A stretch of 64,000 nucleotides of DNA, taken from NCBI GenBank assembly GCA_018806915.1, contig JAGKQI010000043.1, positions 186,001 through 250,000 of the forward strand. Reading direction: 5' to 3'. Position 1 is the stretch's first letter, and every line of letters starts with the position of its first letter. This DNA is from Phytophthora colocasiae (taxonomy: Eukaryota > Oomycota > Peronosporomycetes > Peronosporales > Peronosporaceae). Made by a program: the position numbers and the translations under genes. Below are positions 1,331-48,478 of this stretch, piece after piece. The notes beneath the pieces were generated by a model. It was not told the DNA's origin. It saw only the letters and a list, made by a program, of their open reading frames with translations, and searched no databases.

Positions 1331-1473
1331 ACGAACAAAAGTAGACCTAGAAGATGTCTGTTGTATAATTTTTATCAAGCGAGGTCATAGCCTGCTTTGC
1401 CTTTTTATTTACTACTTCTTCGTGATGAAGACGTGAATGACTTCACCCGAGGAGTAGCTTTGTCTTGTTCCGA

Positions 1474-2108: not shown

Positions 2109-2218
2109 AGTTCTTCTATTGCGAGGAGGAATTGTCTGATTGCTATCTGACTACGGGGGTGAGACAGTTCTTGGGACAGAGTAATTATGGAGCAATCTTT
2201 CAGATTAATTTAATTTTT

Positions 2219-3522: not shown

Positions 3523-3685
3523 CGTCCATCAGTTCAATTGTGTCTTGCCATTGCTATGCAAGCACTTATGTTATATTGTATTGTAATTTTCGAGAAATAT
3601 CATATTTTATTTTTTGTGAATATCCCAGTAATCCGTTTTTTTATTTTTAGAAACTGATTTTATCGATACTGAAATTTTTTATTCA

Positions 3686-4519: not shown

Positions 4520-4605
4520 ACGAGGGAGAAGCGTGTTCTGAAATTCAGGTTATCCCTTCTAATGAACGCATACGTTAAATGTCTTTCGATCTTTGCTGCT
4601 GTTGT

Positions 4606-13200: not shown

Positions 13201-14414
13201 GTGGTGCGGTATCCGCTGATCTTCCCTTTGGACGCAAAGAAATTCTCGATCTTGGCGACGAAATCCGACACGCCCGAGCGATCTGCTAGTAGCACTTCCG
13301 TGTCGTCGCGCTTGAGCATGTAGACGAACTGGCACTTGTCGAGGGGGACACGAAGACGGAAGAAGTTGTAAATACGGTCCTGTAGCGCCACGATGACGAC
13401 GAACCAAACAGACGTGATGACCCACACCACGATGAACACGACAGCGTTTTCTTCCGAGGCGTCAAACAGCGGCGGGTCGAAGCGACCATAGTAGTCAGCG
13501 ATAATAACAATGAGGAGAGCATTTAACGCGAGCGACGCCAACACCACGCAACCGAACACAAACGTGCCGAGAGGTGAGTTGGAAAACCCGGTCTGTAGAA
13601 TACCTTCATTGGCCTCGATCTGCACACGCGTGTCAGAAGCCCGAACGCCTGTGTTGCGACCGTGCGGGTTGCCGGCGACTGCTCTCGACGGAGTCTGCGG
13701 CGTGGCGATGAGCTTCTTGTTCATCTCGTTCACCGATTTGTTGGTCTTCTGCATGAAATTCTTGTAGAACGCCCACCCGCCGAGCACCACGAAGAACGCG
13801 AGGTAGAGCAGGTAGATGATCACCAGTGAAGTCTCTGTGTACGTGGTGAAGCGCGGGGTCGTGGACGTTGACGAAGACGTGCAGGTGGCTCTAAGATCTA
13901 TGTCGACAGAGCCGTCACGCAGCATGAGACTGTAGCAGTTGGCACCCACGGGGAAGGTGGCGTTGTTGTTGCGGACATTGGCCGAATAGGTCCAGAAGAC
14001 GGAGCTGTCTTGCGATGCAGCAGCCAGCGACGAATTCGTGTCAGCACACTGCAATTCCTCTGTCAATTCACCCGTTTCCGTGTTGGCCACAGCTTGCACT
14101 CTGCAGATTGTACTGGGATCGTTGTAGTAGAACTTCTGGGTAGTCGGATGGTACATGACATACGGGTAATTGACTTGACGCTGTTTGTTCCAGCCCTCGA
14201 CGTAGTACGATTCATAGTCACCACCGGAAGGTCGATTGTACTTGGTGTAGATCACCTTGGTAGTCTCCGAGTACTCGCAGCAGTAGTATTCCGGAGCGTG
14301 ACGGACTGGACACGCAGCAAAGTCCATTTGGTTGGCACTGGAGCCGAACACTTGCACGGGTGCAAGCGTGGCTAGAGCCAACGTTGGTAGGAGAACAGAC
14401 CTGCAGCGCGACAT
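10225..14414 (-). pseudogene. P5-type ATPase copy 1, frameshifted near the C-terminus
   Basis: P-type ATPase, P5B-like. Signal peptide, a Cys-rich ectodomain (CPVRHAPEYYCCEYSETTK), a membrane block, TGES, FCFDKTGTLTKQGLDFLGV, and GDGGNDCGALRFAHAGVALS. Relative to copies 2 and 3, a 16-bp deletion at about 10655 removes the codons for WYCPF and shifts the frame. The upstream frame then runs about 68 aberrant residues to a stop at 10449, losing the last membrane helices; the correct frame resumes as an open stretch from about 10655 to 10225. Start 14414 was preferred over the ATG at 14534 because it gives a signal peptide and lies downstream of a core promoter. Pseudogene, or a very recent or assembly-level lesion, because the rest is intact. 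Confidence 0.85.
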
Positions 14415-28378: not shown

Positions 28379-31300
28379 ATGCCTCGCTGGAGTTCAACGC
28401 TTCTGCCAACGCTGGCACTAGCAACGCTTGCACCTGTGCAAGTGAATGCTGCAGCGGCCAACCAAATGGACTTTGCTGCTTGTCCGGTTCGACATGCTCC
28501 TGAGTACTACTGCTGTGAGTACTCAGAGACTACCAAAGTGCTCTACACTAAATACAACCGTCCGTCGGGTGGTGACTACGAGTCATACTACGTCGATGGA
28601 TGGAACGAGCAACGGCAAGTGAACTTCCCATACACAATGTACCACCCGACTACGCAGAAGTTCTACTACGACGACCCAAGTAGTATCTGTCGAGTACAAG
28701 CTGTGACCAACACGGAGACGGGAGAGTTGACGGAGGAGATGCAGTGTGCTGACACCAACTCGTCCCTCACTGCGGATTCGCAAGACAGCACCGTCTTCTG
28801 GAACTACGCTGCCAATGTGCGCAATAACAACGCTTCCTTCCCTATTGGCGCGACGTGCTACAGCATTATGCTACGTGACGGCACAGTTGACGCCGATCTG
28901 AGAGACGCTTGTACGTCATCGTCGTCGACGGTGAAGCCTCGGTTCACCTCGTACACGGAGACGCCGTTGGTCATCATCTACGTGCTCTACCTGGTCTTCT
29001 TTGTCATCCTCGGCGGTTGGACGGCTTACAAGAACTTCACGCAGAACGCCAACAACTCGGTGAACGAGATGAACAAGAAGCTGATCGCCACGCCGCAGAC
29101 TCCGTCGAGAGCAGTCGCTGGAAATGCCAACGGACGTCACACCAGTGTGCGTGTTTCTGACACACGCATGCAGATCGAAGCCGCCGAAGGGATTCTCCAG
29201 ACCGGTTTCTCCCGCTCGCACCTAGGCAACTTCGTCTTCGGCTGTGTGGTAGTGGCTTCGCTAGCGTTGAACGTCCTTCTGGTTATCATCATCTGCGACT
29301 ACTACGGTAACTTCGATCCACCGCTCTTTGACCCCACGGAGGACAATGCGCTTGTGTTCATCATCGTTTGGATCATCACGTCAATCTGGTTCGTCGTCAT
29401 CGTGGCGATGCAGGACAGCATCTTCAACTTCTTCCGCGTCCGTGTACCCCTCGACAAGTGCGAGTTCGTCTACATGCTCAAGCGCGACGAGACGGAGGTG
29501 CTGCTGGCCGATCGCTCGGGAGTGTCCGACTGGGTCGCGAAGGTCGAGAGCTTTTTCGCGTCCAAGGGTAAGATCAGCGGATACCGTACGACGGTTCCGG
29601 TGGTGGAGGTGGATGGACTCCGTATCGTCGAGTTCCAGCACGTGCGCTACGTGTACGAGGAGACTGAAGGCCGCTTCGTGCCCGGCGCCGTCGCGCTCGG
29701 ACGTACCTACGACGACATGCAGCAGGAGGCCGGCGGTCTGTCCAACACCGAAGCCACTCACCGCATCAACACGGTCGGATCCAACTCCGTCGACGTCGAG
29801 ATGCCATCACTGCCGGTTTCCATGGCGCACGAGTTCTTCACGCTGTTCTACATCTACCAGATCATGTGCTACTACGTCTGGTACTACTTCACGTACTGGA
29901 ACATGGGAATTGTCATGACGGTGGTGGTCTTGGGAGCTGCCGTGGTGAATATCTACACGCAGCGTCAGATCCAGTCGTCCATTGTCAAGATGACGCGGTA
30001 CCGCACAGACGTGAATGTGTTCCGCAGTGGTGAATGGCTTGTGCTGTCGTCGCCTGATCTGGCTCCGGGTGATCTCGTGAAGGTGTCTGAGAACTGGGTG
30101 GTGCCGTGTGATATGGCCATCGTTAAGGGCACGACGGTGTGCGACGAGTCCATGTTGACTGGCGAATCGATGCCGGTGCAGAAGTTCCCGATCCCGGAAC
30201 GCAGCAACGAAGTGTATGACCCGGAGAAGGGCAGCAAGAAGCACACGCTGTTTGCTGGCACCCGCGTGTTGTCTTCCGGTCGCAATGAGGAGATCCTGGC
30301 GATCGTGCAGACGACGGGCGCACACACGACCAAGGGCCAATTGATCCAGTCAATTCTGTTTCCGATTCCGATGCGATTCAAGTACAACGAGCACCTGAAG
30401 GTGCTGATCGCGCTTCTCCTGGTCTACTCTATCATTGCTTGTATCATGGTGATCAACTTCCTGATGAGCAACGGTAAGCTCAGCAACCGCTACGCTGCCT
30501 TCTGCTACGCCATCTTCGTCTTGTCCTGCGTCATCAGTCCCCTTCTTCCTGTTGTTATTACTGTCGGTCAAGTTAACGCCTCACAGCGCCTCGAGAAGCT
30601 TGGTGTGTTTTCTCTCAACGTCGAGCGTATCACGCTTGCCGGTAAGGTTCGCATTTTCTGCTTCGACAAGACCGGTACGCTCACCAAGCAAGGTCTCGAC
30701 TTCCTCGGCGTGCAGCCGGTCAAGGACAGTCGCTTCACTCCGATTGTCAACGACGTCAAAGACGCCCCGTCGTCCGAGGAACTGCTGTATGCACTGACGA
30801 CGTGCCACTCGGTCGGTTCTCTCGAGGACCGTCTTGTGGGTAACGAAGTGGAGGTGCGTATGTTCACGGCCACGGGTTGGGAGCTGGTCGAGAAGGAGGG
30901 CGAGCAGCCGTGCGTGAGGTCGAAGGTGGACCCGGGTCTGGAATTGGAGTTCGTCAAGCGCTACGACTTCGACCACCACCGCATGTCCATGAGTGTCGTG
31001 GTGCGCAACCGCAAGAGCGGCAAGTACTACGTCTTCTGCAAGGGTTCGTACGAGCGCATGCAGCAGCTGAGCACGTCAGAAAGCGTGCCGGCCGACTACA
31101 AGAACGTGGCCGACCGCCTCGCCAAGGACGGGTGCTACGTGCTGGGTCTGTCGTACCGCGAGCTGCCGAGTGACTGGACGCACGAGCAGGTGATCGAGTT
31201 CGCCAACAACCGCGAGGCTGTGGACGAGAGTCTGTCGCTACTGGGACTTATCCTGTTCCGTAACGAGCTCAAGGACGACACGGCCGACGCCATCATGAAG

Positions 31301-32584
31301 CTTAAGGCCGGCGACATCCGCACCGTCATGATCACGGGCGACAACGCCATGTGCGGCTGCTACATCGCGCGTGAGAGCGGCATGGTGTCGTCCAGCTCAC
31401 GGGTGATTCTGGGCGAGATGGTGTCGACCACCGAGGTGAAGAAGCTGGTGTGGCGCGACGTGGACTCAGCGGAGGAGTACGACCTGCCTGGTGTGAAGCA
31501 CCTTGTAGAGCAGGGCGAGGACGTGGAGCTGGCCGTCACGGGTGTGGCGTTCGACTACCTGGTGGCGATGGGCGAGATCAAGGGGTTGCTACTGAACATC
31601 CGCATCTTCAGCCGCATGACACCCGACGGGAAGGTCGAGTGCGTGAAGTTGCACATGGAGACGGGAGCGGTGACGGGAATGTGCGGTGACGGCGGCAACG
31701 ACTGTGGTGCACTGCGGTTCGCACACGCCGGTGTGGCGCTGAGTGACGCTGAAGCTTCGGTGGTGTCGCCGTTCACGAGTAAGGCGAAGACGATTCAATC
31801 CGTGGTTGATTTGTGCCGTGAAGGTCGCTGCAGTGTGGCGACGTCCTTCGCGTCTGTCAAGTTCCTGATCATGTATGGTCTCATCGGGTCGGTGCTCCGG
31901 TTGTTCATGTACTACCACGCCATCAACCTTTCGCAATGGTGCTGGATTCTGGTTGAAGGTTTCATGCTGGTTGGTTGCTCGTACGTCATCACCTTGTCCA
32001 AGCCATTGGAAGAGCTAAAAGCTGAGCGTCCGACATCGAGTCTGATTGGACCGACTACGCTGGCATCCATCCTCGGACAAGAGGCCATCAACATTATCTA
32101 CTTGTGCTTCAGCATCCACATGCTGTCAAGTCAAGTCTGGTACTGTCCGTTCTCGCCGGACAGTGTGGACGTTGCGAAGTGGTGGCTGCTGTCCGACAAC
32201 CACTTGGCCACGACGCTTTTCTTCACTGTCATCTTCCAGCAACACATTTCGGCTTGGGTCTTCAGTTTCGGCTCGACCTACCGCCAACCGATCTGGAAAA
32301 ACTCTCTACTGCTTCTGTTCATCGCTGCCGTCAGCGCTCTCGACCTGTACATGCTGCTGGGAGAGCCCAGCATCGTCACGGACCGTTTCCGCATTTCCAG
32401 TGGCACTAACGTCGTGGGTCTACCTGATATCCCCATGCCTATGAGCTTCCGCTGGAAGTTGCTTGCAATGCTTCTCGGAAACGTCTTCACCTGCATCCTG
32501 TTCGAGTACGTCGTGGTGCTTGGACCTGTACGGTCATACTTCCGGAACAAGTACCATAAAGACTTGATCCCGATGAAGAAGTAA
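28379..32584 (+). CDS. P5B-like P-type ATPase, intact copy 2
   Basis: Intronless 1401-residue pump. Signal peptide (MPRWSSTLLPTLALATLAPVQ, ending about NA), a Cys-rich ectodomain to about residue 190, then three helices and a cytosolic linker (residues 195-350). Actuator domain with TGES (594-597); membrane motif ISPLLPVVITVGQVNASQRL where P5B pumps have PPALP; DKTGTLT with phospho-Asp763; N domain with FDHHRMSMSVVV; GDGGND at 1103-1108, then SPFTSK; and six C-terminal helices. The P5 class is shown by TGTLTKQGLDFLGV and AHAGVALSDAEASVVSPF. Animal P5B members export polyamines from endolysosomes; the substrate here is unknown. It is the only copy of the three with every catalytic motif and frame intact. 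Confidence 0.9.
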   Translation: MPRWSSTLLPTLALATLAPVQVNAAAANQMDFAACPVRHAPEYYCCEYSETTKVLYTKYNRPSGGDYESYYVDGWNEQRQVNFPYTMYHPTTQKFYYDDPSSICRVQAVTNTETGELTEEMQCADTNSSLTADSQDSTVFWNYAANVRNNNASFPIGATCYSIMLRDGTVDADLRDACTSSSSTVKPRFTSYTETPLVIIYVLYLVFFVILGGWTAYKNFTQNANNSVNEMNKKLIATPQTPSRAVAGNANGRHTSVRVSDTRMQIEAAEGILQTGFSRSHLGNFVFGCVVVASLALNVLLVIIICDYYGNFDPPLFDPTEDNALVFIIVWIITSIWFVVIVAMQDSIFNFFRVRVPLDKCEFVYMLKRDETEVLLADRSGVSDWVAKVESFFASKGKISGYRTTVPVVEVDGLRIVEFQHVRYVYEETEGRFVPGAVALGRTYDDMQQEAGGLSNTEATHRINTVGSNSVDVEMPSLPVSMAHEFFTLFYIYQIMCYYVWYYFTYWNMGIVMTVVVLGAAVVNIYTQRQIQSSIVKMTRYRTDVNVFRSGEWLVLSSPDLAPGDLVKVSENWVVPCDMAIVKGTTVCDESMLTGESMPVQKFPIPERSNEVYDPEKGSKKHTLFAGTRVLSSGRNEEILAIVQTTGAHTTKGQLIQSILFPIPMRFKYNEHLKVLIALLLVYSIIACIMVINFLMSNGKLSNRYAAFCYAIFVLSCVISPLLPVVITVGQVNASQRLEKLGVFSLNVERITLAGKVRIFCFDKTGTLTKQGLDFLGVQPVKDSRFTPIVNDVKDAPSSEELLYALTTCHSVGSLEDRLVGNEVEVRMFTATGWELVEKEGEQPCVRSKVDPGLELEFVKRYDFDHHRMSMSVVVRNRKSGKYYVFCKGSYERMQQLSTSESVPADYKNVADRLAKDGCYVLGLSYRELPSDWTHEQVIEFANNREAVDESLSLLGLILFRNELKDDTADAIMKLKAGDIRTVMITGDNAMCGCYIARESGMVSSSSRVILGEMVSTTEVKKLVWRDVDSAEEYDLPGVKHLVEQGEDVELAVTGVAFDYLVAMGEIKGLLLNIRIFSRMTPDGKVECVKLHMETGAVTGMCGDGGNDCGALRFAHAGVALSDAEASVVSPFTSKAKTIQSVVDLCREGRCSVATSFASVKFLIMYGLIGSVLRLFMYYHAINLSQWCWILVEGFMLVGCSYVITLSKPLEELKAERPTSSLIGPTTLASILGQEAINIIYLCFSIHMLSSQVWYCPFSPDSVDVAKWWLLSDNHLATTLFFTVIFQQHISAWVFSFGSTYRQPIWKNSLLLLFIAAVSALDLYMLLGEPSIVTDRFRISSGTNVVGLPDIPMPMSFRWKLLAMLLGNVFTCILFEYVVVLGPVRSYFRNKYHKDLIPMKK

Positions 32585-33040
32585 GGCGATGACGAGGGTG
32601 ATGAACATCTTGTAGTGTAGTGTTTGCATCGCATTCAGCTTGTGGCCATGCGCCTTGTCATTCAATAAAAACACAATTACAATAGATACTACGGTCTTTT
32701 AGTTTTGCAAACAGTCTTAGCCCGGTACGACCACTTTTTTCTCAACTACTGCCTGTAATTTTAACTGTGAGCAAATGTTGCTTTGATTGGGGAATGCACC
32801 TTATCCACCGTACAGCCAGAGTTCAAGACCTGAACCTATGATTAAGTGCGCGTTTGCACTCCCAAGGTGGCCTCCATGGATCCATGGCCACTAGACAGTG
32901 TGGCGTTTATCTCTTGAGCTGAACGACATTGCTGTCGGCATTTGCTGTTTTGTAAGTGACACATGTTGAATGCCAAGGAGCCACTTTTGCGGATGTGTTT
33001 TGGTCTCCTATACGTGGTACTGCCGAATGGAAGCTGCAGG
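32585..33040. other. 3' flank of P5 ATPase copy 2
   Basis: Contains an AATAAA signal at about 32663 and no other gene. The sequence ends at the 9-bp target-site flank of MULE copy A. Confidence 0.5.
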
Positions 33041-33441
33041 AGCGAGAGTGCATTCTACAGAATAAGTTTGCGTATGTACAGAAGCAGAGACAAAAATACA
33101 GATACCATACCCAAATTACAGATAATAGAACGGCACTACAGCAAAGTGGGCCAGGAATACAGAGTCGTTGCACAGAACTACAGAGACGCTTGATCCCATT
33201 GGCTGCACGGCTTCATATGCTGCAAAAGACGTCCTTTGCGTCTGAGGACTATTTTTTGCAGCGGTTCAGATTAAAAATACTTCTAGATACTGCAGACATC
33301 CACAAGCATTGATATTATCGCTATTCTTCATTTTTACATTGGCTTCCTCCTGATCTAAGGTCCTGAACCCGACGACCCTAACAAGACCCGCGGAATCTCC
33401 CTACCTGCTCCTACTAACTCCGCGTCTTGCCAGTCCTCGCA

Positions 33442-35267
33442 ATGCCGGCCTACGTGTGGCAGAAAGTGAGCTCTTGTGTAACTGAGCATGATCTTGAAGA
33501 CTTCATGGACAAACAAAAGAGCTGGCTTAAAAGCAAAAACCAGAAAGAGAGATGTCAGATCTGTTCACCAAACGTGGATAACCACAAGATGCGGTACACT
33601 ATCCTGAAGTGCTCGTCTTCGACGTGTTCAGTAGTCGCAGCAAGTCAGGAAAGCTGCATGTGGTTTGTCAAGATCCACACCTGTATGCTGACATCGCGTA
33701 GTGATGTTTACCAGAGTGGTATCCACTTATCTACCGCAAATTCACCGAAGAATTGCAAGATCAGCCTCAGCATGCATCGGTTTATCAAGGAACGTGCTGC
33801 TGCAGGGGAAAAACCTTCGGTTGTCTTAAACAAGCTGGCACTTAAGTATAATTTTCAGGATATCGACCCCAAGCAATTGCTGGCCCGAGTCCAGACGCGT
33901 GTCCGGAACCACCGCAAAAATGTCTTGAATGACAACGATTTTGTGGACGAAATGGCTACATTGGCCAAAACCCACCGATACACACACAATCTTGAGGAAA
34001 ATGAGGCATTCACCTTTGGTTTTCCTGTGGACCCAAATGGGGAACCTCTTCTTGGAGAAGGCTCTGATGAGGATCCCTTACTAGTAGGATTTGCCACAAA
34101 ATCTACGATTCGCCGTCTTCAGTTTGCTGCACAGTACATGACGCACCTTGACGCAACATTCAAACTGAACACGCGTGGTTTTCCTGTTATCGCGATCGGA
34201 ATATCGGATATGTGGCGACAGTTCCATTTAGTTGCTCTGTTCTTGGTATCTGACATCAAGCAAAAACGATGGGAAGCTGCCATCCGCTCCACACTAGACA
34301 TGTATTTCAATATTACGGGCGATACTCCAGGAATCGGCTACGTCATGATGGATGCTGACGCTGCGCAACGCAGCGGCTTCGAGTCAATTGCTATCCAAAG
34401 TCTCGCCCTGGATAAACAGCCAAAGTTTTTGATGTGTTTTTCACGTTGTGAAGAACGTGAAGAAGCACATAGCACACCTCAGTTCGGCAAAGAGAGCGGT
34501 TGTGTTTAGACACGTGTACGCGATCCACTACGCTCGAGATCCACTCGAGCTGCAAAACAGGATGAAGGAAGCATTGGCATCCTGGAATACCGACTCGGAT
34601 TTGGCAGACTTCAGCTCTTACTTTCTCAGTCAGTGGATGACAGGTCGATATCGGAATTGGCAGTGTCTCCGAATCTCCCATGGGAATGGCCAAAACAAAC
34701 AATCCAATTGAGAACTTTAACGGCCGTTTCAAACAGCAGCACACCCAGCGAAGGTTACTCCGACTGAACGCTCTCTTTGTTCAGCTTTTGCAGTGCTGCT
34801 CACTTCAGGCGATATTATCACTTCCATTTCAAACAGAAGTGAGAGATAGCCCTAACATTTTGCGTGACCATCGGCGCTTGAATTCCGAAAACGCATTCAG
34901 TATTGTCGAGGTGCAAGACACCCAGATTAGAGTACCATCCGGCCGATTGTACCGTGTATTCCAGCGGTACGTCTCAAGAGAATTGTCGACCAAAGCATCC
35001 GAAACAGAGCAGCAAGAGGCGACGGATTTCGAGTTCGAAGCGGAAGCGCAACCTGGAGTAGGCTGGTTTGTACACGCTGAGTTTCGACAATGCAGTTGCA
35101 GAACGTGGTTCAAGCTGGGGAGTTGCGTTCATGTAGTTGCAGTGCGATTCAAACTGGGTCTGCATGTCGAACCATCGGGTCTCAAAAGAGCTGTGTTCGT
35201 GGACAAACGTGCCAAGAAGAAACGCGGGCGGCCCGCCTTAGCTGGTACAGCTCTCTCACTTGAATGA
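33442..35267 (+). pseudogene. MULE transposase in copy A
   Basis: Mutator-like transposase with a Cys-rich N-terminal domain (CQICSPNVDNHKMRYTILKC), the DDE core (HLDATFKLN; YVMMDADAAQRSGF; NNPIENFNGRFKQQH) and a SWIM finger (FRQCSCRTWFKLGSCVHVVA). The start is the ATG at 33442; the open frame extends upstream only via TTG. Two lesions: a T tract at about 34437 is two bases shorter than in copy B, and one extra C occurs at about 34669. After the second lesion the frame is restored through the SWIM finger to the natural stop at 35265. Confidence 0.88.
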
Positions 35268-35987
35268 GCGAGATATATCGCATTTAACCCACCGATGGCG
35301 CCGGCCTTTCATTTCTCTTTGACACTTCTTTCATTTCCCAGGGCTTCAATTTCTCTTTCACAATACTTTCAATTTCATATTTGCAGCGTTTTCTCTGTTG
35401 CACTGCTTGATACGAGCATTGTTATCGAACCGGCCACAGAAAACACGCACGCCAACAAACCGAGAGCAAGATCTTCGAGCCCACGCCAACACCACCGGGA
35501 TTATGGGCACATTCATCAAAATCACGACAACCTAAACAGTCTCCTCCATGAGCATGGTCACGGAGAAAATCAACCAAGGAAGTCCACAGAGAAAAAAGCC
35601 GGCAGTACGTCCACTGGGAGAAAGACCACCGACAGTATGTCCACTTGGAGTATGACCACGAAAAGCGTGACTGTCCACACGACGATCACCAGTACCACAC
35701 GATCCGACAAGGCATCCATTTCCACGAAGCGTAAAAGAGAGTGGAGCGCAGATAGTAGTGTGTTCTCGTTCGTTTTTCATTTGAATCAGCCAGTAAGTCC
35801 TTACGAGACACCCATATTAAACACGATAAACCACAAGAGCGTGGCAATGCATGAATACATTGAAACACTCCAAAGCCTTAATGCGTCAGGTTCAATTGGT
35901 GAAGAGAACAGGACACTTCCCCTTTTTCCTTCGGCAACCCAGACCACACGACACGACTATCAGTCTCGTACTTCGAAGCCCTGGAAA

Positions 35988-36379
35988 ATGCTCGGTGGCA
36001 AGGCTTATTTGAGGGCCTGTGCTCTTGTTGCTTTCGCGTCTTCAAGCTCCGTCGTTGATGCTCAGTCCACATACGACGCAATTGTCGTTGGAAGCGGCCC
36101 CGGAAGTCTCGTTGCTGCTGAGTACTTGTCTCGTGATCCAAACGTTTCGGTGCTGATCGTCGAGGCTGGCCCCAAGTCCTCGGTGCTTCTGGCGGCACCA
36201 CGATGATCCCGGACTACGCGAAGAGCAAAGGTCTCACAGCTTTCGACATCCCTAGCGAGTACGAGAGCATTTCCTGGAATTCCAACTTCGCACATTTCCG
36301 TGTGGACTGGATCTCTAGTCCTTCGACGTGGCTCGGTAAACTCGTCGGTCAAGGCGGCGCTTCCGTCTTGGTCTCTTGA
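35988..36379 (+). pseudogene. Captured GMC/FAD oxidoreductase fragment in copy A
   Basis: Starts with a signal-peptide-like stretch (MLGGKAYLRACALVAFASSS) followed by an FAD-binding Rossmann motif (DAIVVGSGPGSLVAAEYLS, VSVLIVEAGP), as in glucose-methanol-choline oxidoreductases. In this copy one C is missing at about 36178, shifting the frame. Homology stops abruptly after GKLVGQGG, so only the 5' end of a host gene is present. The longer open frame from 35295 runs through it but shows no further domain. Confidence 0.65.
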
Positions 36380-38263
36380 TCTGTAAAAGTGGGAGAGAAA
36401 ATAAATAAAAACAAAATTTCAAATATAAATTTCTGTTCCTCGGTCGGATGGTTTTATTCCGGTAAATCATTGTTGCACCGTGGATCTTGGAGCTGATGTA
36501 ACAATAAAGTTTGAGAGCTTGTGTAATGCTCTTCTTTCGTTTCATGGATAACATTTAGGCTGTGGGCATGTTTGGGCGGGTCGCATCATCTTCGAGTCCT
36601 TGTTCGTACTCAATAGACCTGCATCTCCTCGGAGACAATTGAGACAACCCGTGCGTCCTGTTAGCCGTGGGGATCATCAACAGCAGCCTGGACGGGGTCA
36701 TGCTTGGCCTTGAGACGCCTGACTACCTCGCCATGCAAGTGCGGTCTGAAACGCTGGGTAAACAGCCTTTGGACGGAGCCGTCTTGGCCCAGTTAGCAGG
36801 ACCTACGGACAACGACCCGTTCCAGTTACGTGGTTCAGTCTCCTGTTAAATCAAATTCGGGTTAGCTATCTTCATAGCAACTTCCTCTTCAATCACAACC
36901 CAAAGCTGTTGACGTCCCGCACTACCACCATAGCAAGAAAGAGAATAAAACCTCGTACGAGGAGGTCAGCTACCAGGATGAGCTGCAGAAAACATCGCTG
37001 AGTCGTCAGCGAACCTTCACTACTACGATCTTGACAGCTCCGACGAGGAAACCTCCGAAGAGGAATCAAATCCCGTGTCCATTTCTCCCCGCAACGTTGA
37101 AATCTTCGACTTCTCCTTGTCGATCGTCTTCATTTCTTCGGATAAAAGTGACGAATACGTTAAACCGCCAGTGGACGTTCCCCGCAAGTATCGCACCCAG
37201 AACCGTCAAGGAGGTGTGCTGGCGTTGTTCACACATTGGGCGTTTAAAAGGGAGAAGCGCCGTTTGGGCGGAGATGGGGCCGCTTCCGGAGCGAGCTGAG
37301 GCGCATCTTTCTCCATTTGAAGAGGTTCTTGATGGAGTATCTGTAGGAATGTACTCGGGCATAATTATTTGAGCTGTGGGTATACATATTGTAGTGTGTT
37401 AATTTATTCCTTCAAGTATCAAGAACAACCGAGAGAAGGTCGTGTGGCCAGTACCATTGTCTTTATTCACATTGACTTATCAACAAGACACTAGTTTGCA
37501 ACATCACCACAGATATTCCGTCAAGTGAGCCGGATCACCGGGTATTGTAGGATAGGAGACGTCTAGGGAGCTCTGGTAAGCACCTTTGGTTGAGCACGTT
37601 TAAGTGGTGACGTGACGTTCGTAGCCTTAGGAGACTTACGTAATGCCGTGACGTTCGCAGGTCTTGTCGGTGTAGTTTCAGTTAGGCTTTGGTGAGGCAT
37701 TCGACGTGAGGTTCCTAGGGATAAATTCCGACCGTGTCACATCATGGGTCGCTGTTCTTGGCGTGCTTTTGCTGCCAGTCGACGACTTTCACTGTCGTCC
37801 GATTCGCTAATGTCTTCTTCATCATCAACACTATCGATTGAACTGAAGAATTTGCTGCTGCCATCGCCACTTTCGATCGATCTTGACAAGAACTCGCTGC
37901 TATCGTCGCTATCGTCAACAACCAGCCCCTATGCGGTGACAGTCTCCTCGGCACGTCTGGATTTCAGGGTTAGACTCCCCAACGTTCTCTGGATGAATTT
38001 CTGCTTCCTCTTCTTACGTTCCGCTACTGCTCCATCTTGACGATCGAAAACTTTTTAGTTGCGATAAAGTCAAGCAACCCGCTTCAACATATCTACCCCC
38101 GGAATCCGATAGAATTGATTGAGCAGCTACGACAGGTTTAAATTGGTCCGTGGACTATTCCTGCAGACTAAATTAAGACCCCAATCCTCTACCTACACCT
38201 TCTGTAAAATTATCCATGCCTCTGTAGAATGGCAATTTCCACCTGTAGAATTATCTTTTTGTC
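36380..38263. other. MULE cargo of unidentified origin (copy A)
   Basis: Several short, protein-like pieces are visible. 36667-36849 (plus) ends in a plausible C-terminus containing LDGVMLGLETPDYLAMQVR. About 37040-37299 (plus) is acidic and then carries GGVLALFTHWAFKREKR. At about 37740-37930 (minus) is an acidic Ser/Asp-rich stretch ending RRLAAKARQEQRPMM. None is recognisable, and all are mirrored in copy B. They may be captured gene pieces. Confidence 0.4.
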
Positions 38264-38903
38264 CACTTTGTTCGACTATGACCACGTTACCCGCACAAAT
38301 GGTTATCTTGTGGTTGTGACAAAGCATGGCTGAGAATAGGAGGCAGAGACGGCGTACTCCACCACATGTGTCGTCTACCGTATTTAAGATCTCATAGTTC
38401 AGAGAGATCTCATAGTTCGCACCGTGTAATAGCCAATCAGCAACGTTGTTCAGTCCACATCAGCAATTGAGATCTCATAATTCGTAGCGTAAAAATAGGT
38501 CAAAACTCTCAAAAACAGGGCGCTCACTTCGAGAAAAGCACCATGGGGCCGCGGCCGGAAGGAAGGAAGGACGAGGACGACGGGCATCGGTAAAGCTCCT
38601 AAGCAATTCAAACGTGGTGCAGTATCGTACGAGCACAAACTACCAGTAGTAGAGTTCCATGATGCAGTAGTTTTAGAGACGTGTCGGTACCTGTACGGCT
38701 CTTGTACATTTTACAACAATACAACTTCAAAAACCTGGGGTCTGAACTATGAGATCTCAAATACGGTAGTCCTGCAAGTGCAGCCTGCATATGCTCATTG
38801 AGACCATGACGAAGATCATGACACCCGTTTAAGAGCTCTGAGTCTACACAAAAGCGAACGCAACGCCGGGCGTCGCTCCTGTCGCCTTGAACCCCTGCAG
38901 CTT
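38264..38903. other. 640-bp spacer between the inverted MULE copies
   Basis: Bounded by CACTTTGTT (38264-38272) and CTGCAGCTT (38895-38903). These are reverse complements of the right outer flank and the left outer flank of the MULE pair. The spacer appears inverted relative to its original orientation. It contains a MITE and no gene. Confidence 0.85.
38376..38768. mobile_element. TA-flanked MITE in the spacer
   Basis: A 26-bp terminal inverted repeat starting CCGTATTT(A/G)AGATCTCAT, with one mismatch, at 38378-38403 and 38741-38766. It is flanked by TA on both sides (38376-38377, 38767-38768), as in Tc1/mariner-related MITEs. The box GAGATCTCATAGTTC is repeated about three times near the left end. 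No coding sequence. Confidence 0.75.
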
Positions 38904-40786
38904 GACAAAAAGATAATTCTACAGGTGGAAATTGCCATTCTACAGAGGCATGGATAATTTTACAGAAGGTGTAGGTAGAGGATTGGGGTCTTAATTTAGT
39001 CTGCAGGAATAGTCCACGGACCAATTTAAACCTGTCGTAGCTGCTCAATCAATTCTATCGGATTCCGGGGGTAGATATGTTGAAGCGGGTTGCTTGACTT
39101 TATCGCAACTAAAAAGTTTTCGATCGTCAAGATGGAGCAGTAGCGGAACGTAAGAAGAGGAAGCAGAAATTCATCCAGAGAACGTTGGGGAGTCTAACCC
39201 TGAAATCCAGACGTGCCGAGGAGACTGTCACCGCATAGGGGCTGGTTGTTGACGATAGCGACGATAGCAGCGAGTTCTTGTCAAGATCGATCGAAAGTGG
39301 CGATGGCAGCAGCAAATTCTTCAGTTCAATCGATAGTGTTGATGATGAAGAAGACATTAGCGAATCGGACGACAGTGAAAGTCGTCGACTGGCAGCAAAA
39401 GCACGCCAAGAACAGCGACCCATGATGTGACACGGTCGGAATTTATCCCTAGGAACCTCACGTCGAATGCCTCACCAAAGCCTAACTGAAACTACACCGA
39501 CAAGACCTGCGAACGTCACGGCATTACGTAAGTCTCCTAAGGCTACGAACGTCACGTCACCACTTAAACGTGCTCAACCAAAGGTGCTTACCAGAGCTCC
39601 CTAGACGTCTCCTATCCTACAATACCCGGTGATCCGGCTCACTTGACGGAATATCTGTGGTGATGTTGCAAACTAGTGTCTTGTTGATAAGTCAATGTGA
39701 ATAAAGACAATGGTACTGGCCACACGACCTTCTCTCGGTTGTTCTTGATACTTGAAGGAATAAATTAACACACTACAATATGTATACCCACAGCTCAAAT
39801 AATTATGCCCGAGTACATTCCTACAGATACTCCATCAAGAACCTCTTCAAATGGAGAAAGATGCGCCTCAGCTCGCTCCGGAAGCGGCCCCATTCCGCCC
39901 AAACGGCGCTTCTCCCTTTTAAACGCCCAATGTGTGAACAACGCCAGCACACCTCCTTGACGGTTCTGGGTGCGATACTTGCGGGGAACGTCCACTGGCG
40001 GTTTAACGTATTCGTCACTTTTATCCGAAGAAATGAAGACGATCGACAAGGAGAAGTCGAAGATTTCAACGTTGCGGGGAGAAATGGACACGGGATTTGA
40101 TTCCTCTTCGGAGGTTTCCTCGTCGGAGCTGTCAAGATCGTAGTAGTGAAGGTTCGCTGACGACTCAGCGATGTTTTCTGCAGCTCATCCTGGTAGCTGA
40201 CCTCCTCGTACGAGGTTTTATTCTCTTTCTTGCTATGGTGGTAGTGCGGGACGTCAACAGCTTTGGGTTGTGATTGAAGAGGAAGTTGCTATGAAGATAG
40301 CTAACCCGAATTTGATTTAACAGGAGACTGAACCACGTAACTGGAACGGGTCGTTGTCCGTAGGTCCTGCTAACTGGGCCAAGACGGCTCCGTCCAAAGG
40401 CTGTTTACCCAGCGTTTCAGACCGCACTTGCATGGCGAGGTAGTCAGGCGTCTCAAGGCCAAACATGACCCCGTCCAGGCTGCTGTTGATGATCCCCACG
40501 GCTAACAGGACGCACGGGTTGTCTCAATTGTCTCCGAGGAGATGCAGGTCTATTGAGTACGAACAAGGACTCGAAGATGATGCGACCCGCCCAAACATGC
40601 CCACAGCCTAAATGTTATCCATGAAACGAAAGAAGAGCATTACACAAGCTCTCAAACTTTATTGTTACATCAGCTCCAAGATCCACGGTGCAACAATGAT
40701 TTACCGGAATAAAACCATCCGACCGAGGAACAGAAATTTATATTTGAAATTTTGTTTTTATTTATTTTCTCTCCCACTTTTACAGA
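38904..40786. other. MULE cargo of unidentified origin (copy B)
   Basis: Mirror image of 36380-38263 with scattered substitutions. The differences include a changed stretch near 39880, where copy B has CATTCCGCCC and copy A has CATCTCCGCCC in the same orientation. Confidence 0.4.
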
Positions 40787-41179
40787 TCAAGAGACCAAGA
40801 CGGAAGCGCCGCCTTGACCGACGAGTTTACCGAGCCACGTCGAAGGACTAGAGATCCAGTCCACACGGAAATGTGCGAAGTTGGAATTCCAGGAAATGCT
40901 CTCGTACTCGCTAGGGATGTCGAAAGCTGTGAGACCTTTGCTCTTCGCGTAGTCCGGGATCATCGTGGTGCCGCCAGAAGCACCGAGGGACTTGGGGCCA
41001 GCCTCGACGATCAGCACCGAAACGTTTGGATCACGAGACAAGTACTCAGCAGCAACGAGACTTCCGGGGCCGCTTCCAACGACAATTGCGTCGTATGTGG
41101 ACTGAGCATCAACGACGGAGCTTGAAGACGCGAAAGCAACAAGAGCACAGGCCCTCAAATAAGCCTTGCCACCGAGCAT
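40787..41179 (-). pseudogene. Captured GMC/FAD oxidoreductase fragment in copy B
   Basis: Same fragment as in copy A, but the frame is open from the signal-peptide Met to the stop at 40787. It encodes VGSGPGSLVAAEYLSRDPN, GASGGTTMIPDYAKSKGL, and ends at GKLVGQGGASVLVS. About 130 residues; the remaining roughly 400 residues of a GMC enzyme are missing, so it is not functional as an oxidoreductase. Confidence 0.65.
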
Positions 41180-41899
41180 TTTCCAGGGCTTCGAAGTACG
41201 AGACTGATAGTCGTGTCGTGTGGTCTGGGTTGCCGAAGGAAAAAGGGGAAGTGTCCTGTTCTCTTCACCAATTGAACCTGACGCATTAAGGCTTTGGAGT
41301 GTTTCAATGTATTCATGCATTGCCACGCTCTTGTGGTTTATCGTGTTTAATATGGGTGTCTCGTAAGGACTTACTGGCTGATTCAAATGAAAAACGAACG
41401 AGAACACACTACTATCTGCGCTCCACTCTCTTTTACGCTTCGTGGAAATGGATGCCTTGTCGGATCGTGTGGTACTGGTGATCGTCGTGTGGACAGTCAC
41501 GCTTTTCGTGGTCATACTCCAAGTGGACATACTGTCGGTGGTCTTTCTCCCAGTGGACGTACTGCCGGCTTTTTTCTCTGTGGACTTCCTTGGTTGATTT
41601 TCTCCGTGACCATGCTCATGGAGGAGACTGTTTAGGTTGTCGTGATTTTGATGAATGTGCCCATAATCCCGGTGGTGTTGGCGTGGGCTCGAAGATCTTG
41701 CTCTCGGTTTGTTGGCGTGCGTGTTTTCTGTGGCCGGTTCGATAACAATGCTCGTATCAAGCAGTGCAACAGAGAAAACGCTGCAAATATGAAATTGAAA
41801 GTATTGTGAAAGAGAAATTGAAGCCCTGGGAAATGAAAGAAGTGTCAAAGAGAAATGAAAGGCCGGCGCCATCGGTGGGTTAAATGCGATATATCTCGC

Positions 41900-43727
41900 T
41901 CATTCAAGTGAGAGAGCTGTACCAGCTAAGGCGGGCCGCCCGCGTTTCTTCTTGGCACGTTTGTCCACGAACACAGCTCTTTTGAGACCCGATGGTTCGA
42001 CATGCAGACCCAGTTTGAATCGCACTGCAACTACATGAACGCAACTCCCCAGCTTGAACCACGTTCTGCAACTGCATTGTCGAAACTCAGCGTGTACAAA
42101 CCAGCCTACTCAAGGTTGCGCTTCCGCTTCGAACTCGAAATCCGTCGCCTCTTGCTGCTCTGTTTCGGATGCTTTGGTCGACAATTCTCTTGAGACGTAC
42201 CGCTGGAATACACGGTACAATCGGCCGGATGGTACTCTAATCTGGGTGTCTTGCACCTCGACAATACTGAATGCGTTTTCGGAATTCAAGCGCCGATGGT
42301 CACGCAAAATGTTAGGGCTATCTCTCACTTCTGTTTGAAATGGAAGTGATAATATCGCCTGAAGTGAGCAGCACTGCAAAAAGCTGAACAAAGAGAGCGT
42401 TCAGTCGGAGTAACCTTCGCTGGGTGTGCTGCTGTTTGAAACGGCCGTTAAAGTTCTCAATTGGATTGTTTGTTTTGGCCATTCCCATGGGAGATTCGAG
42501 ACACTGCCAATTCCGATATCGACCTGTCATCCACTGACTGAGAAAGTAAGAGCTGAAGTCTGCCAAATCCGAGTCGGTATTCCAGGATGCCAATGCTTCC
42601 TTCATCCTGTTTTGCAGCTCGAGTGGATCTCGAGCGTAGTGGATCGCGTACACGTGTCTAAACACAACCGCTCTCTTTGCCGAACTGAGGTGTGCTATGT
42701 GCTTCTTCACGTTCTTCACAACGTGAAAAAAACACATCAAAAACTTTGGCTGTTTATCCAGGGCGAGACTTTGGATAGCAATTGACTCGAAGCCGCTGCG
42801 TTGCGCAGCGTCAGCATCCATCATGACGTAGCCGATTCCTGGAGTATCGCCCGTAATATTGAAATACATGTCTAGTGTGGAGCGGATGGCAGCTTCCCAT
42901 CGTTTTTGCTTGATGTCAGATACCAAGAACAGAGCAACTAAATGGAACTGTCGCCACATATCCGATATTCCGATCGCGATAACAGGAAAACCACGCGTGT
43001 TCAGTTTGAATGTTGCGTCAAGGTGCGTCATGTACTGTGCAGCAAACTGAAGACGGCGAATCGTAGATTTTGTGGCAAATCCTACTAGTAAGGGATCCTC
43101 ATCAGAGCCTTCTCCAAGAAGAGGTTCCCCATTTGGGTCCACAGGAAAACCAAAGGTGAATGCCTCATTTTCCTCAAGATTGTGTGTGTATCGGTGGGTT
43201 TTGGCCAATGTAGCCATTTCGTCCACAAAATCGTTGTCATTCAAGACATTTTTGCGGTGGTTCCGGACACGCGTCTGGACTCGGGCCAGCAATTGCTTGG
43301 GGTCGATATCCTGAAAATTATACTTAAGTGCCAGCTTGTTTAAGACAACCGAAGGTTTTCCCCCTGCAGCAGCACGTTCCTTGATAAACCGATGCATGCT
43401 GAGGCTGATCTTGCAATTCTTCGGTGAATTTGCGGTAGATAAGTGGATACCACTCTGGTAAACATCACTACGCGATGTCAGCATACAGGTGTGGATCTTG
43501 ACAAACCACATGCAGCTTTCCTGACTTGCTGCGACTACTGAACACGTCGAAGACGAGCACTTCAGGATAGTGTACCGCATCTTGTGGTTATCCACGTTTG
43601 GTGAACAGATCTGACATCTCTCTTTCTGGTTTTTGCTTTTAAGCCAGCTCTTTTGTTTGTCCATGAAGTCTTCAAGATCATGCTCAGTTACACAAGAGCT
43701 CACTTTCTGCCACACGTAGGCCGGCAT
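41900..43727 (-). pseudogene. MULE transposase in copy B
   Basis: The same gene as in copy A with different lesions. The T7 tract at about 42728 is intact, so the frame stays open from the N-terminal zinc region through all three DDE residues. One extra T at about 42378 then shifts the frame, and a G-to-T change at about 42112 creates a stop in the shifted region's original frame. The SWIM finger is therefore lost. Confidence 0.88.
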
Positions 43728-44138
43728 TGCGAGGACTGGCAAGACGCGGAGTTAGTAGGAGCAGGTAGGGAGATTCCGCGGGTCTTGTTAGGGTCGTCGG
43801 GTTCCGGACCTTAGATCAGGAGGAAGCCAATGTAAAAATGAAGAATAGCGATAATATCAATGCTTGTGGATGTCTGCAGTATCTAGAAGTATTTTTAATC
43901 TGAACCGCTGCAAAAAATAGTCCTCAGACGCAAAGGACGTCTTTTGCAGCATATGAAGCCGTGCAGCCAATGGGATCAAGCGTCTCTGTAGTTCTGTGCA
44001 ACGACTCTGTATTCCTGGCCCACTTTGCTGTAGTGCCGTTCTATTATCTGTAATTTGGGTATGGTATCTGTATTTTTGTCTCTGCTTCTGTACATACGCA
44101 AACTTATTCTGTAGAATGCACTCTCGCTCAACAAAGTG

Positions 44139-44281: not shown

Positions 44282-47200
44282 ATGCCTCGTTGGAGTTCAA
44301 CGCTTCTACCAGCGCTGGTACTGGCCATGCTGGCACCTGTGCAAGTGAATGCTGCAGCGGCCAACCAAATGGACTTTGCTGCTTGTCCGGTTCGACATGC
44401 TCCAGAGTACTATTGCTGTGAGTACTCAGAGACTACCAAAGTGCTCTACACCAAGTACAACCGTCCATCCGGGGGTGACTACGAGCCGTACTACGTCGAC
44501 GGATGGAACAAACTGCGGCAAGTCAACTTCCCGTTCTCAATGTACAGACCAGACACAAAGACATTCAACTACTCCAACTCGAACGAGGTGTGTCGAGTCC
44601 AAGCTGTCGCTAACAAGGCAACGGGTAAACTCACGGAACGTTTACAATGTACCGACACCAATTCGTCACTGGCTGCTGCTTCACAGAACAACACCGTGTT
44701 TTGGACCTACAAAGACAACTCGCGCAACAACAATGCTTCGTTCCCTTTGGGTGCTAACTGCTACAGTCTCATGCTGCATGATGGTACTGTCGACTTGAAT
44801 TTGAAGAACACGTGTACGTCTGCTGCTGCTGTCTCCGCCGCCCAGATCAGGTTCACGACGTTTATGGAGATGCCGTTGGTCGCAATTTACCTCTTGTACT
44901 TGGCGTTCTTCGCATTGGTGGGGGTCTGGGCCATTTACAGACACTTTCACCAGAGAGACAAGCAATTGACCAACGATATCAACAAGACGCTGTTAGCCAA
45001 GTCCCGGATCTCCGCCAAGCCAGCTGCGGCTGATACCTACGGCCGTCGCACCAGTATACGTGCCTCGGACGTGCACGTGCAAACGGTGGCCAGTAAGGAT
45101 GTTCTGCAAACAGGTTTCTCGAATTCGTCATTCGGTTCGTTTGTGTTTGGCTGTTTGATTTTCGCGTCGCTCTGTCTGAATGGCTTCATCATCTTGATCA
45201 TCGTCGACTTCTATCGCATATTTGACCCACCACTCTTCGACACAAGGGAGGACAGCACTGCAATCTTCTTTTTCGTGTGGATCGCCACACTCGGGTGGTT
45301 TGTAGCTGTCATGTCGTGTCAAGACCGCGTCTTCAACTTCTTCCGCGTCCGTGTACCCCTCGACAAGTGCGAGTTCGTCTACATGCTCAAGCGCGACGAG
45401 ACGGAGGTGCTGCTGGCCGATCGCTCGGGGGTGTCCGACTTGGTCGCGAAGGTCGAGAGCTTTTTCGCGTCCAAGGGTAAGATCAGCGGATACCGTACGA
45501 CGGTTCCGGTTGTGGAGGTGGATGGACTCCGTATCGTCGAGTTCCAGCACGTGCGCTACGTGTACGAGGAGACTGAAGGCCGCTTCGTGCCCGGCGCCGT
45601 TGCGCTCGGACGTACCTACGACGACATGCAGCAGGAGGCCGGCGGTCTGTCCAACACCGAAGCCACTCACCGCATCAACACGGTCGGATCCAACTCCGTC
45701 GACGTCGAGGTGCCATCACTGCCGGTTTCCATGGCGCACGAGTTCTTCACGCTGTTCTACATCTACCAGATCATGTGCTACTACGTCTGGTACTACTTCA
45801 CGTACTGGAACATGGGAATTGTCATGACGGTGGTGGTCTTGGGAGCTGCCGTGGTGAATATCTACACGCAGCGTCAGATCCAGTCGTCCATTGTCAAGAT
45901 GACGCGGTACCGCACAGACGTGAATGTGTTCCGCAGTGGTGAATGGCTTGTGCTGTCGTCGCCTGATCTGGCTCCGGGTGATCTCGTGAAGGTGTCTGAG
46001 AACTGGGTGGTGCCGTGTGATATGGCCATCGTTAAGGGCACGACGGTGTGCGACGAGTCCATGTTGACTGGCGAATCGATGCCGGTGCAGAAGTTCCCGA
46101 TCCCGGAACGCAGCAACGAAGTGTATGACCCGGAGAAGGGCAGCAAGAAGCACACGCTGTTTGCTGGCACCCGCGTGTTGTCTTCCGGTCGCAATGAGGA
46201 GATCCTGGCGATCGTGCAGACGACGGGCGCACACACGACCAAGGGCCAATTGATCCAGTCAATTCTGTTTCCGATTCCGATGCGATTCAAGTACAACGAG
46301 CACTTGAAGATGCTGATCGCGTTGCTGTTTGTGTATACCTTCATCGTGTGCACCATCTCGACCTACTTCGTCATGGAGAACCACATGATTAGCAACCGAT
46401 ACGCGACGTTCTTCACTTCGATCTTTATGTTGTCGGCTGTGGTTAGCCCCTTATTACCGGTGGTTATCACAGTTGGTCAAGTAAATGCCTCTCGACGTCT
46501 GGGGAAGCAGGGCATTTTCTCCCTTGACGTTCAACGTATTACTCTCGCAGGCAAGGTTCGCATTTTCTGCTTCGACAAGACCGGCACGCTCGACTTCCTC
46601 GGCGTGCAGCCGGTCAAGGACAGTCGCTTCACTCCGATTGTCAACGACGTCAAAGACGCCCCGTCGTCCGAGGAACTGCTGTACGCACTGACGACGTGCC
46701 ACTCGGTCGGTTCTCTCGAGGACCGTCTTGTGGGTAACGAAGTGGAGGTGCGTATGTTCACGGCCACGGGTTGGGAGCTGGTCGAGAAGGAGGGCGAGCA
46801 GCCGTGCGTGAGGTCGAAGGTGGACCCGGGTCTGGAATTGGAGTTCGTCAAGCGCTACGACTTCGACCACCACCGCATGTCCATGAGCGTCGTGGTGCGC
46901 AACCGCAAGAGCGGCAAGTACTACGTCTTCTGCAAGGGTTCGTACGAGCGCATGCAGCAGCTGAGCACGTCAGAAAGCGTGCCGGCCGACTACAAGAACG
47001 TGGCCGACCGCCTCGCCAAGGACGGGTGCTACGTGCTGGGTCTGTCGTACCGCGAGCTGCCGAGTGACTGGACGCACGAGCAGGTGATCGAGTTCGCCAA
47101 CAACCGCGAGGCTGTGGACGAGAGTCTGTCGCTACTGGGACTTATCCTGTTCCGTAACGAGCTCAAGGACGACACGGCCGACGCCATCATGAAGCTTAAG

Positions 47201-48478
47201 GCCGGCGACATCCGCACCGTCATGATCACGGGCGACAACGCCATGTGCGGCTGCTACATCGCGCGTGAGAGCGGCATGGTGTCGTCCAGCTCACGGGTGA
47301 TTCTGGGCGAGATGGTGTCGACCACCGAGGTGAAGAAGCTGGTGTGGCGCGACGTGGACTCGGCGGAGGAGTACGATCTGCCTGGTGTGAAGCACCTTGT
47401 AGAGCAGGGCGAGGACGTGGAGCTGGCCGTCACGGGGGTGGCGTTCGACTACCTGGTGGCGATGGGCGAGATCAAGGGGTTGCTACTGAACATCCGCATC
47501 TTCAGCCGCATGACACCCGACGGGAAGGTCGAGTGCGTGAAGTTGCACATGGAGACGGGAGCGGTGACGGGGATGTGCGGTGACGGCGGCAACGACTGTG
47601 GTGCGCTGCGGTTCGCACACGCTGGTGTGGCGCTGAGTGACGCTGAAGCTTCGGTGGTGTCGCCGTTCACGAGTAAGGCGAAGACGATCCAGTCGGTGGT
47701 TGACTTGTGCCGTGAAGGTCGCTGCAGTTTGGCGACGTCCTTCGCGTCTGTCAAGTTTCTGATCGTGAATGGTCTTGTTGGCTCGGTGATGTGGGGCTTC
47801 CAAGCTTACCATACTGTTGTTGTAGCACAGTGGTGTTGGATTCTGTCCGATGGGTTTTCACTACTGGGACTTTCGTACCTGATCACACTCTCAAAGCCGT
47901 TGGACGAGCTGAGAACTCAACGCCCAACGTCGAGCCTGATCGGCCCTACCACACTCGTGTCCATGTTCGGGCAGCAGATTATCAACGTCATTTCCCTCTG
48001 CTGCAGTGTCCACCTGCTCACTAGCGAAGTCTGGTACTGTCCATTCTCACCCGAAAGCATTGATGCGGCCAAGTGGTGGGTCATGTCGGACAACCACTTA
48101 GCGACGCTGTTCTTCTTCGCGATCATCTTTCAACAACACACAGCTGCGTGGGTCTTCAGCTTCGGTTCACACTATCGCCAGCCGATCTGGCGAAACTATC
48201 GGCTGATGGGGTTCTTCGTGGTTCTAGCATCGATCGATCTGTATCTGCTTCTGGGCGAACCAAGTGCCATTATGGAGCAGTTACGCATCTCAAGCAGTAC
48301 GAACGTCGTTGGACTGCCAGATATTCCTATGCCTTTCAGCTTCCGAACGAAGTATCTCGGCGTTCTATTGGGAGGCGTCTTCGCCAGCATTGCATTCCAG
48401 TATTTTGTAGTGCTTGGCCCCGTGCGCAGTTACTTCCGGAAAAAATACCACACAGATATGATCCCCATGAGAAAATAA
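44282..48478 (+). CDS. P5B-like P-type ATPase, copy 3, with shortened phosphorylation motif
   Basis: Intronless, 1398 residues from the ATG at 44282. Same architecture as copy 2: signal peptide, Cys-rich ectodomain, TGES, SPLLP membrane motif, GDGGND and C-terminal helices. The first 350 residues and the helices after the actuator and P domains diverge from copy 2, while 45331-46302 and 46553-47757 are nearly identical to it. A 15-bp in-frame deletion removes five residues after DKTGTL, so DKTGTLTKQGLDFLG becomes DKTGTLDFLG. Phospho-Asp765 remains, but the last Thr and the hinge after the motif are gone. Probably impaired or inactive, though the frame is kept. Confidence 0.88.
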   Translation: MPRWSSTLLPALVLAMLAPVQVNAAAANQMDFAACPVRHAPEYYCCEYSETTKVLYTKYNRPSGGDYEPYYVDGWNKLRQVNFPFSMYRPDTKTFNYSNSNEVCRVQAVANKATGKLTERLQCTDTNSSLAAASQNNTVFWTYKDNSRNNNASFPLGANCYSLMLHDGTVDLNLKNTCTSAAAVSAAQIRFTTFMEMPLVAIYLLYLAFFALVGVWAIYRHFHQRDKQLTNDINKTLLAKSRISAKPAAADTYGRRTSIRASDVHVQTVASKDVLQTGFSNSSFGSFVFGCLIFASLCLNGFIILIIVDFYRIFDPPLFDTREDSTAIFFFVWIATLGWFVAVMSCQDRVFNFFRVRVPLDKCEFVYMLKRDETEVLLADRSGVSDLVAKVESFFASKGKISGYRTTVPVVEVDGLRIVEFQHVRYVYEETEGRFVPGAVALGRTYDDMQQEAGGLSNTEATHRINTVGSNSVDVEVPSLPVSMAHEFFTLFYIYQIMCYYVWYYFTYWNMGIVMTVVVLGAAVVNIYTQRQIQSSIVKMTRYRTDVNVFRSGEWLVLSSPDLAPGDLVKVSENWVVPCDMAIVKGTTVCDESMLTGESMPVQKFPIPERSNEVYDPEKGSKKHTLFAGTRVLSSGRNEEILAIVQTTGAHTTKGQLIQSILFPIPMRFKYNEHLKMLIALLFVYTFIVCTISTYFVMENHMISNRYATFFTSIFMLSAVVSPLLPVVITVGQVNASRRLGKQGIFSLDVQRITLAGKVRIFCFDKTGTLDFLGVQPVKDSRFTPIVNDVKDAPSSEELLYALTTCHSVGSLEDRLVGNEVEVRMFTATGWELVEKEGEQPCVRSKVDPGLELEFVKRYDFDHHRMSMSVVVRNRKSGKYYVFCKGSYERMQQLSTSESVPADYKNVADRLAKDGCYVLGLSYRELPSDWTHEQVIEFANNREAVDESLSLLGLILFRNELKDDTADAIMKLKAGDIRTVMITGDNAMCGCYIARESGMVSSSSRVILGEMVSTTEVKKLVWRDVDSAEEYDLPGVKHLVEQGEDVELAVTGVAFDYLVAMGEIKGLLLNIRIFSRMTPDGKVECVKLHMETGAVTGMCGDGGNDCGALRFAHAGVALSDAEASVVSPFTSKAKTIQSVVDLCREGRCSLATSFASVKFLIVNGLVGSVMWGFQAYHTVVVAQWCWILSDGFSLLGLSYLITLSKPLDELRTQRPTSSLIGPTTLVSMFGQQIINVISLCCSVHLLTSEVWYCPFSPESIDAAKWWVMSDNHLATLFFFAIIFQQHTAAWVFSFGSHYRQPIWRNYRLMGFFVVLASIDLYLLLGEPSAIMEQLRISSSTNVVGLPDIPMPFSFRTKYLGVLLGGVFASIAFQYFVVLGPVRSYFRKKYHTDMIPMRK

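Follow-up and report, generated by a model that had tools for sequence, protein, structure and literature searches.

In the window analysed here, a 64,000-nucleotide stretch of a contig of the oomycete Phytophthora colocasiae (JAGKQI010000043.1, labelled C36 in what follows), two Mutator-like elements (MULEs), A and B, stand inverted relative to each other on either side of a short spacer, and their 9-bp target duplications, X and Y, have been exchanged between them and inverted. Along the window the order is AAGCTGCAG [A] CACTTTGTT ... CTGCAGCTT [B] AACAAAGTG (Table 1). Judging by the nucleotide differences among the seven two-ended copies of the genome, A and B are each other's closest kin, sister copies of one element, and the spacer is, according to the alignments, inverted relative to an uninterrupted relative on another contig, C9. 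The account that we prefer, giving it nearly an even chance of being right, is that one aberrant transposition, a hybrid element insertion that took its two ends from sister chromatids, made both the twins and the inversion. This weight, like those given below to the other routes, is a judgement and not a computation.

Table 1. Features of the inverted MULE pair and its surroundings, in window coordinates
Feature	Position	Strand	Remarks
Third P-type ATPase paralogue	10228-14414	-	in-frame stops towards the end of frame 1
P-type ATPase gene, left paralogue	28379..32584	+	context
Left outer 9-mer AAGCTGCAG	33031..33039	+	outer copy of target duplication X; abuts the end of element A
MULE copy A	33040..38263	+	5224 bp
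Transposase open reading frame of A	33442..34509	+	355 aa, shorter than that of B; PF10551 at 31.8 bits (cut-off 27.6)
Inner 9-mer CACTTTGTT	38264..38272	+	reverse complement of the right outer 9-mer; abuts the end of element A
Spacer	38264..38903		640 bp, both inner 9-mers included
MITE-like repeat in spacer (miniature inverted-repeat transposable element)	38376..38768		393 bp, TA-flanked (one TA per side counted); 29-bp terminal inverted repeats
Inner 9-mer CTGCAGCTT	38895..38903	+	reverse complement of the left outer 9-mer; abuts the end of element B
MULE copy B	38904..44129	-	5226 bp
Cargo open reading frame of B	40787..41872	-	361 aa; similar to cellobiose dehydrogenase (GMC oxidoreductase) over residues 258-357
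Transposase open reading frame of B	42318..43727	-	469 aa; PF10551 at 38.7 bits (cut-off 27.6)
Right outer 9-mer AACAAAGTG	44130..44138	+	outer copy of target duplication Y; abuts the end of element B
P-type ATPase gene, right paralogue	44282..48478	+	ATG 152 bp from the end of B

Both inner 9-mers are exact reverse complements of the outer 9-mer of the opposite copy, which, the ends being fixed, would happen by chance with a probability of 4^-18, or ~1.5e-11. Opposite copies with exchanged, inverted target duplications are a feature of inversions produced by ectopic recombination of the type known for the transposon Galileo, and A and B display it. The original prediction, made from the letters of this stretch, had proposed precisely such a swap, and it is borne out to the base, the four 9-mers being located at the element ends. 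It had also held that the swap fixes these ends to the base; they are pinned, in addition, by five other copies which have the same termini and direct duplications of 9-10 bp. The spacer measures the 640 bp that had been announced, and the coordinates given for the structure fit, with the exception of its start, placed at 33041, 10 bases inside the left 9-mer as counted from its first base. A fold-back palindrome is ruled out as an artefact, as had been argued, because it would not produce two different 9-mers; the same argument does not extend to an assembler that misoriented the spacer between two 5.2-kb repeats.

The relationship between the two copies carries much of what follows. A search of the genome (92.5 Mb in 105 contigs) with A as the query returned 30 matches, among them seven two-ended copies: A, B and those on C35, C83, C100, C10 and C58 (in the latter two, other inserts break up the element). 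None of the five outside copies lies on C36, and searches with each element end alone (9 and 10 matches) brought no additional two-ended copy. All five are flanked by direct duplications, of 9 bp in four cases and of 10 bp in C100. The seven were aligned, C10 and C58 being taken in despite their interruptions, while fragments and diverged relatives were omitted (C44, C32, C53, C93, C97, C83:2027881, C8, C28, C100:341422); gap-free biallelic columns were kept as single-nucleotide polymorphism (SNP) columns, to the exclusion of those with gaps or three states, and there are 58 of them. Between A and B there are 4 SNPs and 5 indel events, some of the latter in short homopolymers, whereas the remaining 20 pairs are 15-27 SNPs apart. 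Taking as mean the 19.9 SNPs of the 10 pairs formed by the five outside copies, the Poisson probability of finding 4 or fewer is 1.8e-5, a rough value since the pairs are not independent. Nine of the 58 columns are private to A and B jointly, at alignment positions running from 88 to 4815, and the four differences between them (1 private to A, 3 private to B) are distributed 2, 1, 1 over the thirds of the element. Chimeric columns, in which A and B would side with different outside copies, number 0/58. As each outside copy has 6 to 9 private SNPs, the lineage of A and B was single, or kept homogeneous, during most of its history, and its visible split is recent. Independent, unhomogenised insertions of two unrelated copies are ruled out by this sisterhood. 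An older relative of the element on C44 (L055/L056, C44:868742-879802) has two ends, 11 kb from each other, whose flanks are unlike; it may represent two fragments or one rearranged copy, and its ends may not belong to one element.

The inversion of the spacer, which formed part of the prediction, finds support outside the locus. Once the spacer is reverse-complemented, the left flank and the spacer align in one piece to contig C9, at two places: L046 (279 columns, 73%, E 5e-34 without the MITE-like repeat and 3e-33 when it is kept) and L047 (262 columns, 72%, E 1e-27 and 1e-26, respectively). The assembled order, by contrast, aligns only as two pieces, on opposite strands, and the reciprocal search with the C9 stretch as query matches C36:218870-218999 (+) and C36:224802-224891 (-). 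The two C9 places do not contain the MULE; being tandem relatives of each other, 83-87% alike (87% over 886 columns), they count as one witness, and ~40 bp beside the junction align poorly to them. A segment inverted with respect to the uninserted chromosome, as in inversions of the Galileo type, is thus seen only at the left junction, by comparison with a single diverged locus that is present on C9 in two copies. The MITE-like repeat of the spacer has at least 28 further near-full matches, at 94-99%.

To see how a single event could lead to this arrangement, we may start from one MULE, resident either at X (AAGCTGCAG) or, the situation being symmetrical, at Y. Once the chromosome has been replicated, transposase would pair the 5' end of the element on one sister chromatid with its 3' end on the other, a process described as hybrid element insertion and also as sister-chromatid or alternative transposition. 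This hybrid pair of ends would then insert into AACAAAGTG, a few hundred bases off on the same chromosome, and the viable orientation would lead directly to X[A]Y' - inverted spacer - X'[B]Y, that is, inverted twins with exchanged, inverted duplications. We infer here the single step, the involvement of sister chromatids and the site that came first. According to the Galileo study (PMC2775673), sister-chromatid hybrid element insertion yields the same end structure as recombination, the copies being identical after hybrid element insertion and chimeric after ectopic recombination. By this yardstick the sisterhood of A and B, together with the absence of chimeric columns, speaks for the one-step outcome: the flanking copies look like twins of one element (4 SNPs against 15-27), and the chimerism of the Galileo type is absent, with the proviso that source copies which were twins, or were homogenised later, would hide it. 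A comparable situation has been described, in PMC12312487, for two head-to-head VANDAL21 MULEs ~200 bp apart, the rearrangements of which are read as alternative transposition. Because both ends of an aberrant insertion are tethered, the one-step route would favour a near target; that no outside two-ended copy lies on C36 argues, weakly, against a habit of local jumping.

A number of observations weigh against hybrid element insertion. Gene conversion between the inverted arms could make old independent copies resemble sisters, and the flanking ATPase paralogues carry blocks at 99-100% identity. A recombinational flip would find an ideal substrate in near-identical inverted repeats of 5.2 kb separated by 640 bp, so that about half of such pairs would look exchanged anyway. 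The distinction between chimeric and identical copies is weakened here, since the source copies may have been twins already, or may have been homogenised by gene conversion. A 2-base gap in a T run is common to A and C83 and absent in B. No relative was found for the right junction, the DNA upstream of the window's other two ATPase genes scoring at the shuffle background, and the reciprocal empty chromatid was not seen. Finally, MULEs assayed in yeast (Muta1 and Os3378) excise and reinsert in the ordinary way (PMC5225508).

The strongest competitor is the route proposed in the original prediction: a second copy inserted nearby in inverted orientation, each copy having its own direct duplication, and homologous recombination between the two then flipped the spacer. 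We consider two variants, the second copy being a recent local daughter, or both being older independent copies homogenised by gene conversion; jointly, they are nearly as likely as hybrid element insertion, with a chance somewhat below a half. Recombination does produce the exact string observed, as verified with random letters (recombination alone was scripted, while the strings of the one-step and replicative routes were written down from their models). As one-step insertion gives the same string, exchanged duplications cannot separate the two; the prediction was right about the outcome, and its route is not established by it, nor is independent insertion followed by a flip the simplest account, because A and B are closest kin. 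Inverted 5.2-kb arms differing by 4 SNPs would make good substrates, the mosaic identity of the three ATPase paralogues suggests that gene conversion occurs in the neighbourhood, and the process has been published for Galileo in Drosophila (PMC2775673). Gene conversion, or local insertion of a daughter, could also give sister-like recombined copies. Against this, the route takes two events or more, and an insertion that fell by chance within ~640 bp; not one of the 58 SNP columns is chimeric, whereas Galileo showed a clear switch; and A and B do not have the diverged blocks that the ATPase paralogues retained, their SNPs numbering 2, 1 and 1 per third. In its simplest form, with independent copies left unhomogenised, recombination is rejected by the sister relation.

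A replicative inversion of the IS26/Tn3 type, in which both 3' ends of one resident element would attack the target in trans, the joined strands being then replicated, seems to us improbable, even though it would make copies that are exact twins at birth. We know of no eukaryotic MULE that transposes replicatively by trans attack, and we count this against such a route. According to PMC7986276, intramolecular replicative transposition of the IS26 type predicts the inversion, an inverted second copy and, for each copy, one original and one target flank: the same end structure, from one element and in one step. It belongs, however, to a bacterial family with 8-bp duplications, and MULEs are not known to resort to it. 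Furthermore, each of the five outside copies is a simple insertion between direct duplications, and the yeast assays of Muta1 and Os3378 show excision (PMC5225508). As a sub-variant of the one-step outcome, an IS26-like nick-and-join is less likely than hybrid insertion. Least probable of all is an error of assembly, with X[A]X...Y[B]Y as the true order, the spacer being misoriented between near-identical 5.2-kb arms: it would give exactly the exchanged 9-mers, orientation being taken here from the assembly, the 5 indel events between A and B, some in short homopolymers, are as in uncorrected long reads, and the re-inverted spacer agrees with C9, so that this relative does not argue against misorientation, but 92.5 Mb in 105 contigs suggests long reads able to span 5.2 kb.

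That the two elements are MULEs, as the prediction had it, is correct, PF10551 being found in the transposase of B; a stretch resembling a SWIM-like zinc finger scores 14.8, below the cut-off of 19.6. In the second half of the element, residues 258-357 of the cargo reading frame match cellobiose dehydrogenase 1kdg with an E of 1.8e-11. The closest proteins (11 matches) are Phytophthora MULE proteins, at 55-62% identity, those from named organisms being mostly of this genus, with P. megakarya (59%), P. palmivora (55 and 62%) and P. nicotianae (61%). The terminal inverted repeats of A are short and imperfect, with 14/21 positions alike by eye and the common stretch ATTCTACAG; MULEs without terminal inverted repeats have been described (PMC6446971). 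MULEs make target duplications of 8-11 bp, and those of the outside two-ended copies are direct and 9 or 10 bp long in 5/5. In a diverged stretch (88%) of the cargo half, L011 (C93:1426701-1427909), the part corresponding to element positions 3885-4927 is exactly inverted, with 3818-3884 and 4928-5017 on its two sides, and no terminal repeats were found at the break points.

The three P-type ATPase paralogues of the window are mosaics, in which blocks at 99-100% stand beside blocks at ~60-70% nucleotide identity. Between the left and right genes, bins 1201-2000 and 2401-3400 have 197-200 of 200 positions identical, most other bins having 119-185 of 200, a pattern that suggests gene conversion. 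The right ATPase is without four residues, present in the left one, directly after DKTGTL. A bacterial-code scan for tRNAs in the 64-kb window gave 0.

Exchanged duplications at inversions flanked by transposons are already known, from Galileo in Drosophila buzzatii (PMC2775673): there too opposite copies of one DNA transposon bound the inverted segment, with exchanged inverted target duplications and uninterrupted relatives elsewhere. Galileo is a member of the P superfamily, with 7-bp duplications, an inversion of chromosomal scale and chimeric copies, whereas the present pair consists of MULEs with 9-bp duplications around a 640-bp segment, sister copies without a chimeric site. Also comparable are V21_4 and V21_5, head-to-head VANDAL21 elements of Arabidopsis Tsu-0, two inverted MULEs that lie next to each other across a short spacer; inversion of this spacer figures among their somatic variants, and alternative transposition has been proposed for MULEs on that occasion. 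That pair was described from the reads of hypomethylated plants (PMC12312487), and its duplications are not fully resolved, while A and B are one assembled state in which all four 9-mers are resolved. The citrus CitMule of Arrufatina likewise marks a rearrangement: this MULE is in inverted orientation, and its 9-bp duplications are dissimilar. The rearrangement is a 2-Mb deletion involving one element, and no inverted twin is reported in the portion of PMC4334395 considered. Among titles and the starts of abstracts we found none naming exchanged MULE duplications in an oomycete, which is not proof of their absence. A scan for a second case, in which 150 scored candidates out of 645 were read by eye, did not list A and B themselves and is therefore no survey of such pairs. 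Among these 150 of 645, the only close inverted pair of equal score (L058/L059, C34:233213-241827) is not a second case: it is a 3.5-kb inverted duplication, 99.8% identical, around a MULE domain, its arms ~1.1 kb apart and one of them with a 202-bp insert, and neither terminal repeats nor target duplications, exchanged or otherwise, were found there.

For the host, the event placed a MULE end 152 bp upstream of the start codon of a P-type ATPase gene and turned around the intergenic DNA. If replicative trans attack without excision were true after all, it would represent a nick-and-join mode of making copies in a eukaryotic MULE, and would matter for the question of how Mutator elements multiply. 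The locus also comes with a warning, as exchanged target duplications do not, on their own, prove recombination. With four duplications and both element ends resolved to the base, young twins and six or more kin copies that have a clean SNP history, it makes a usable natural test of recombination against one faulty transposition, and this test case lies in MULEs, a group for which the proposal of alternative transposition is recent (PMC12312487).

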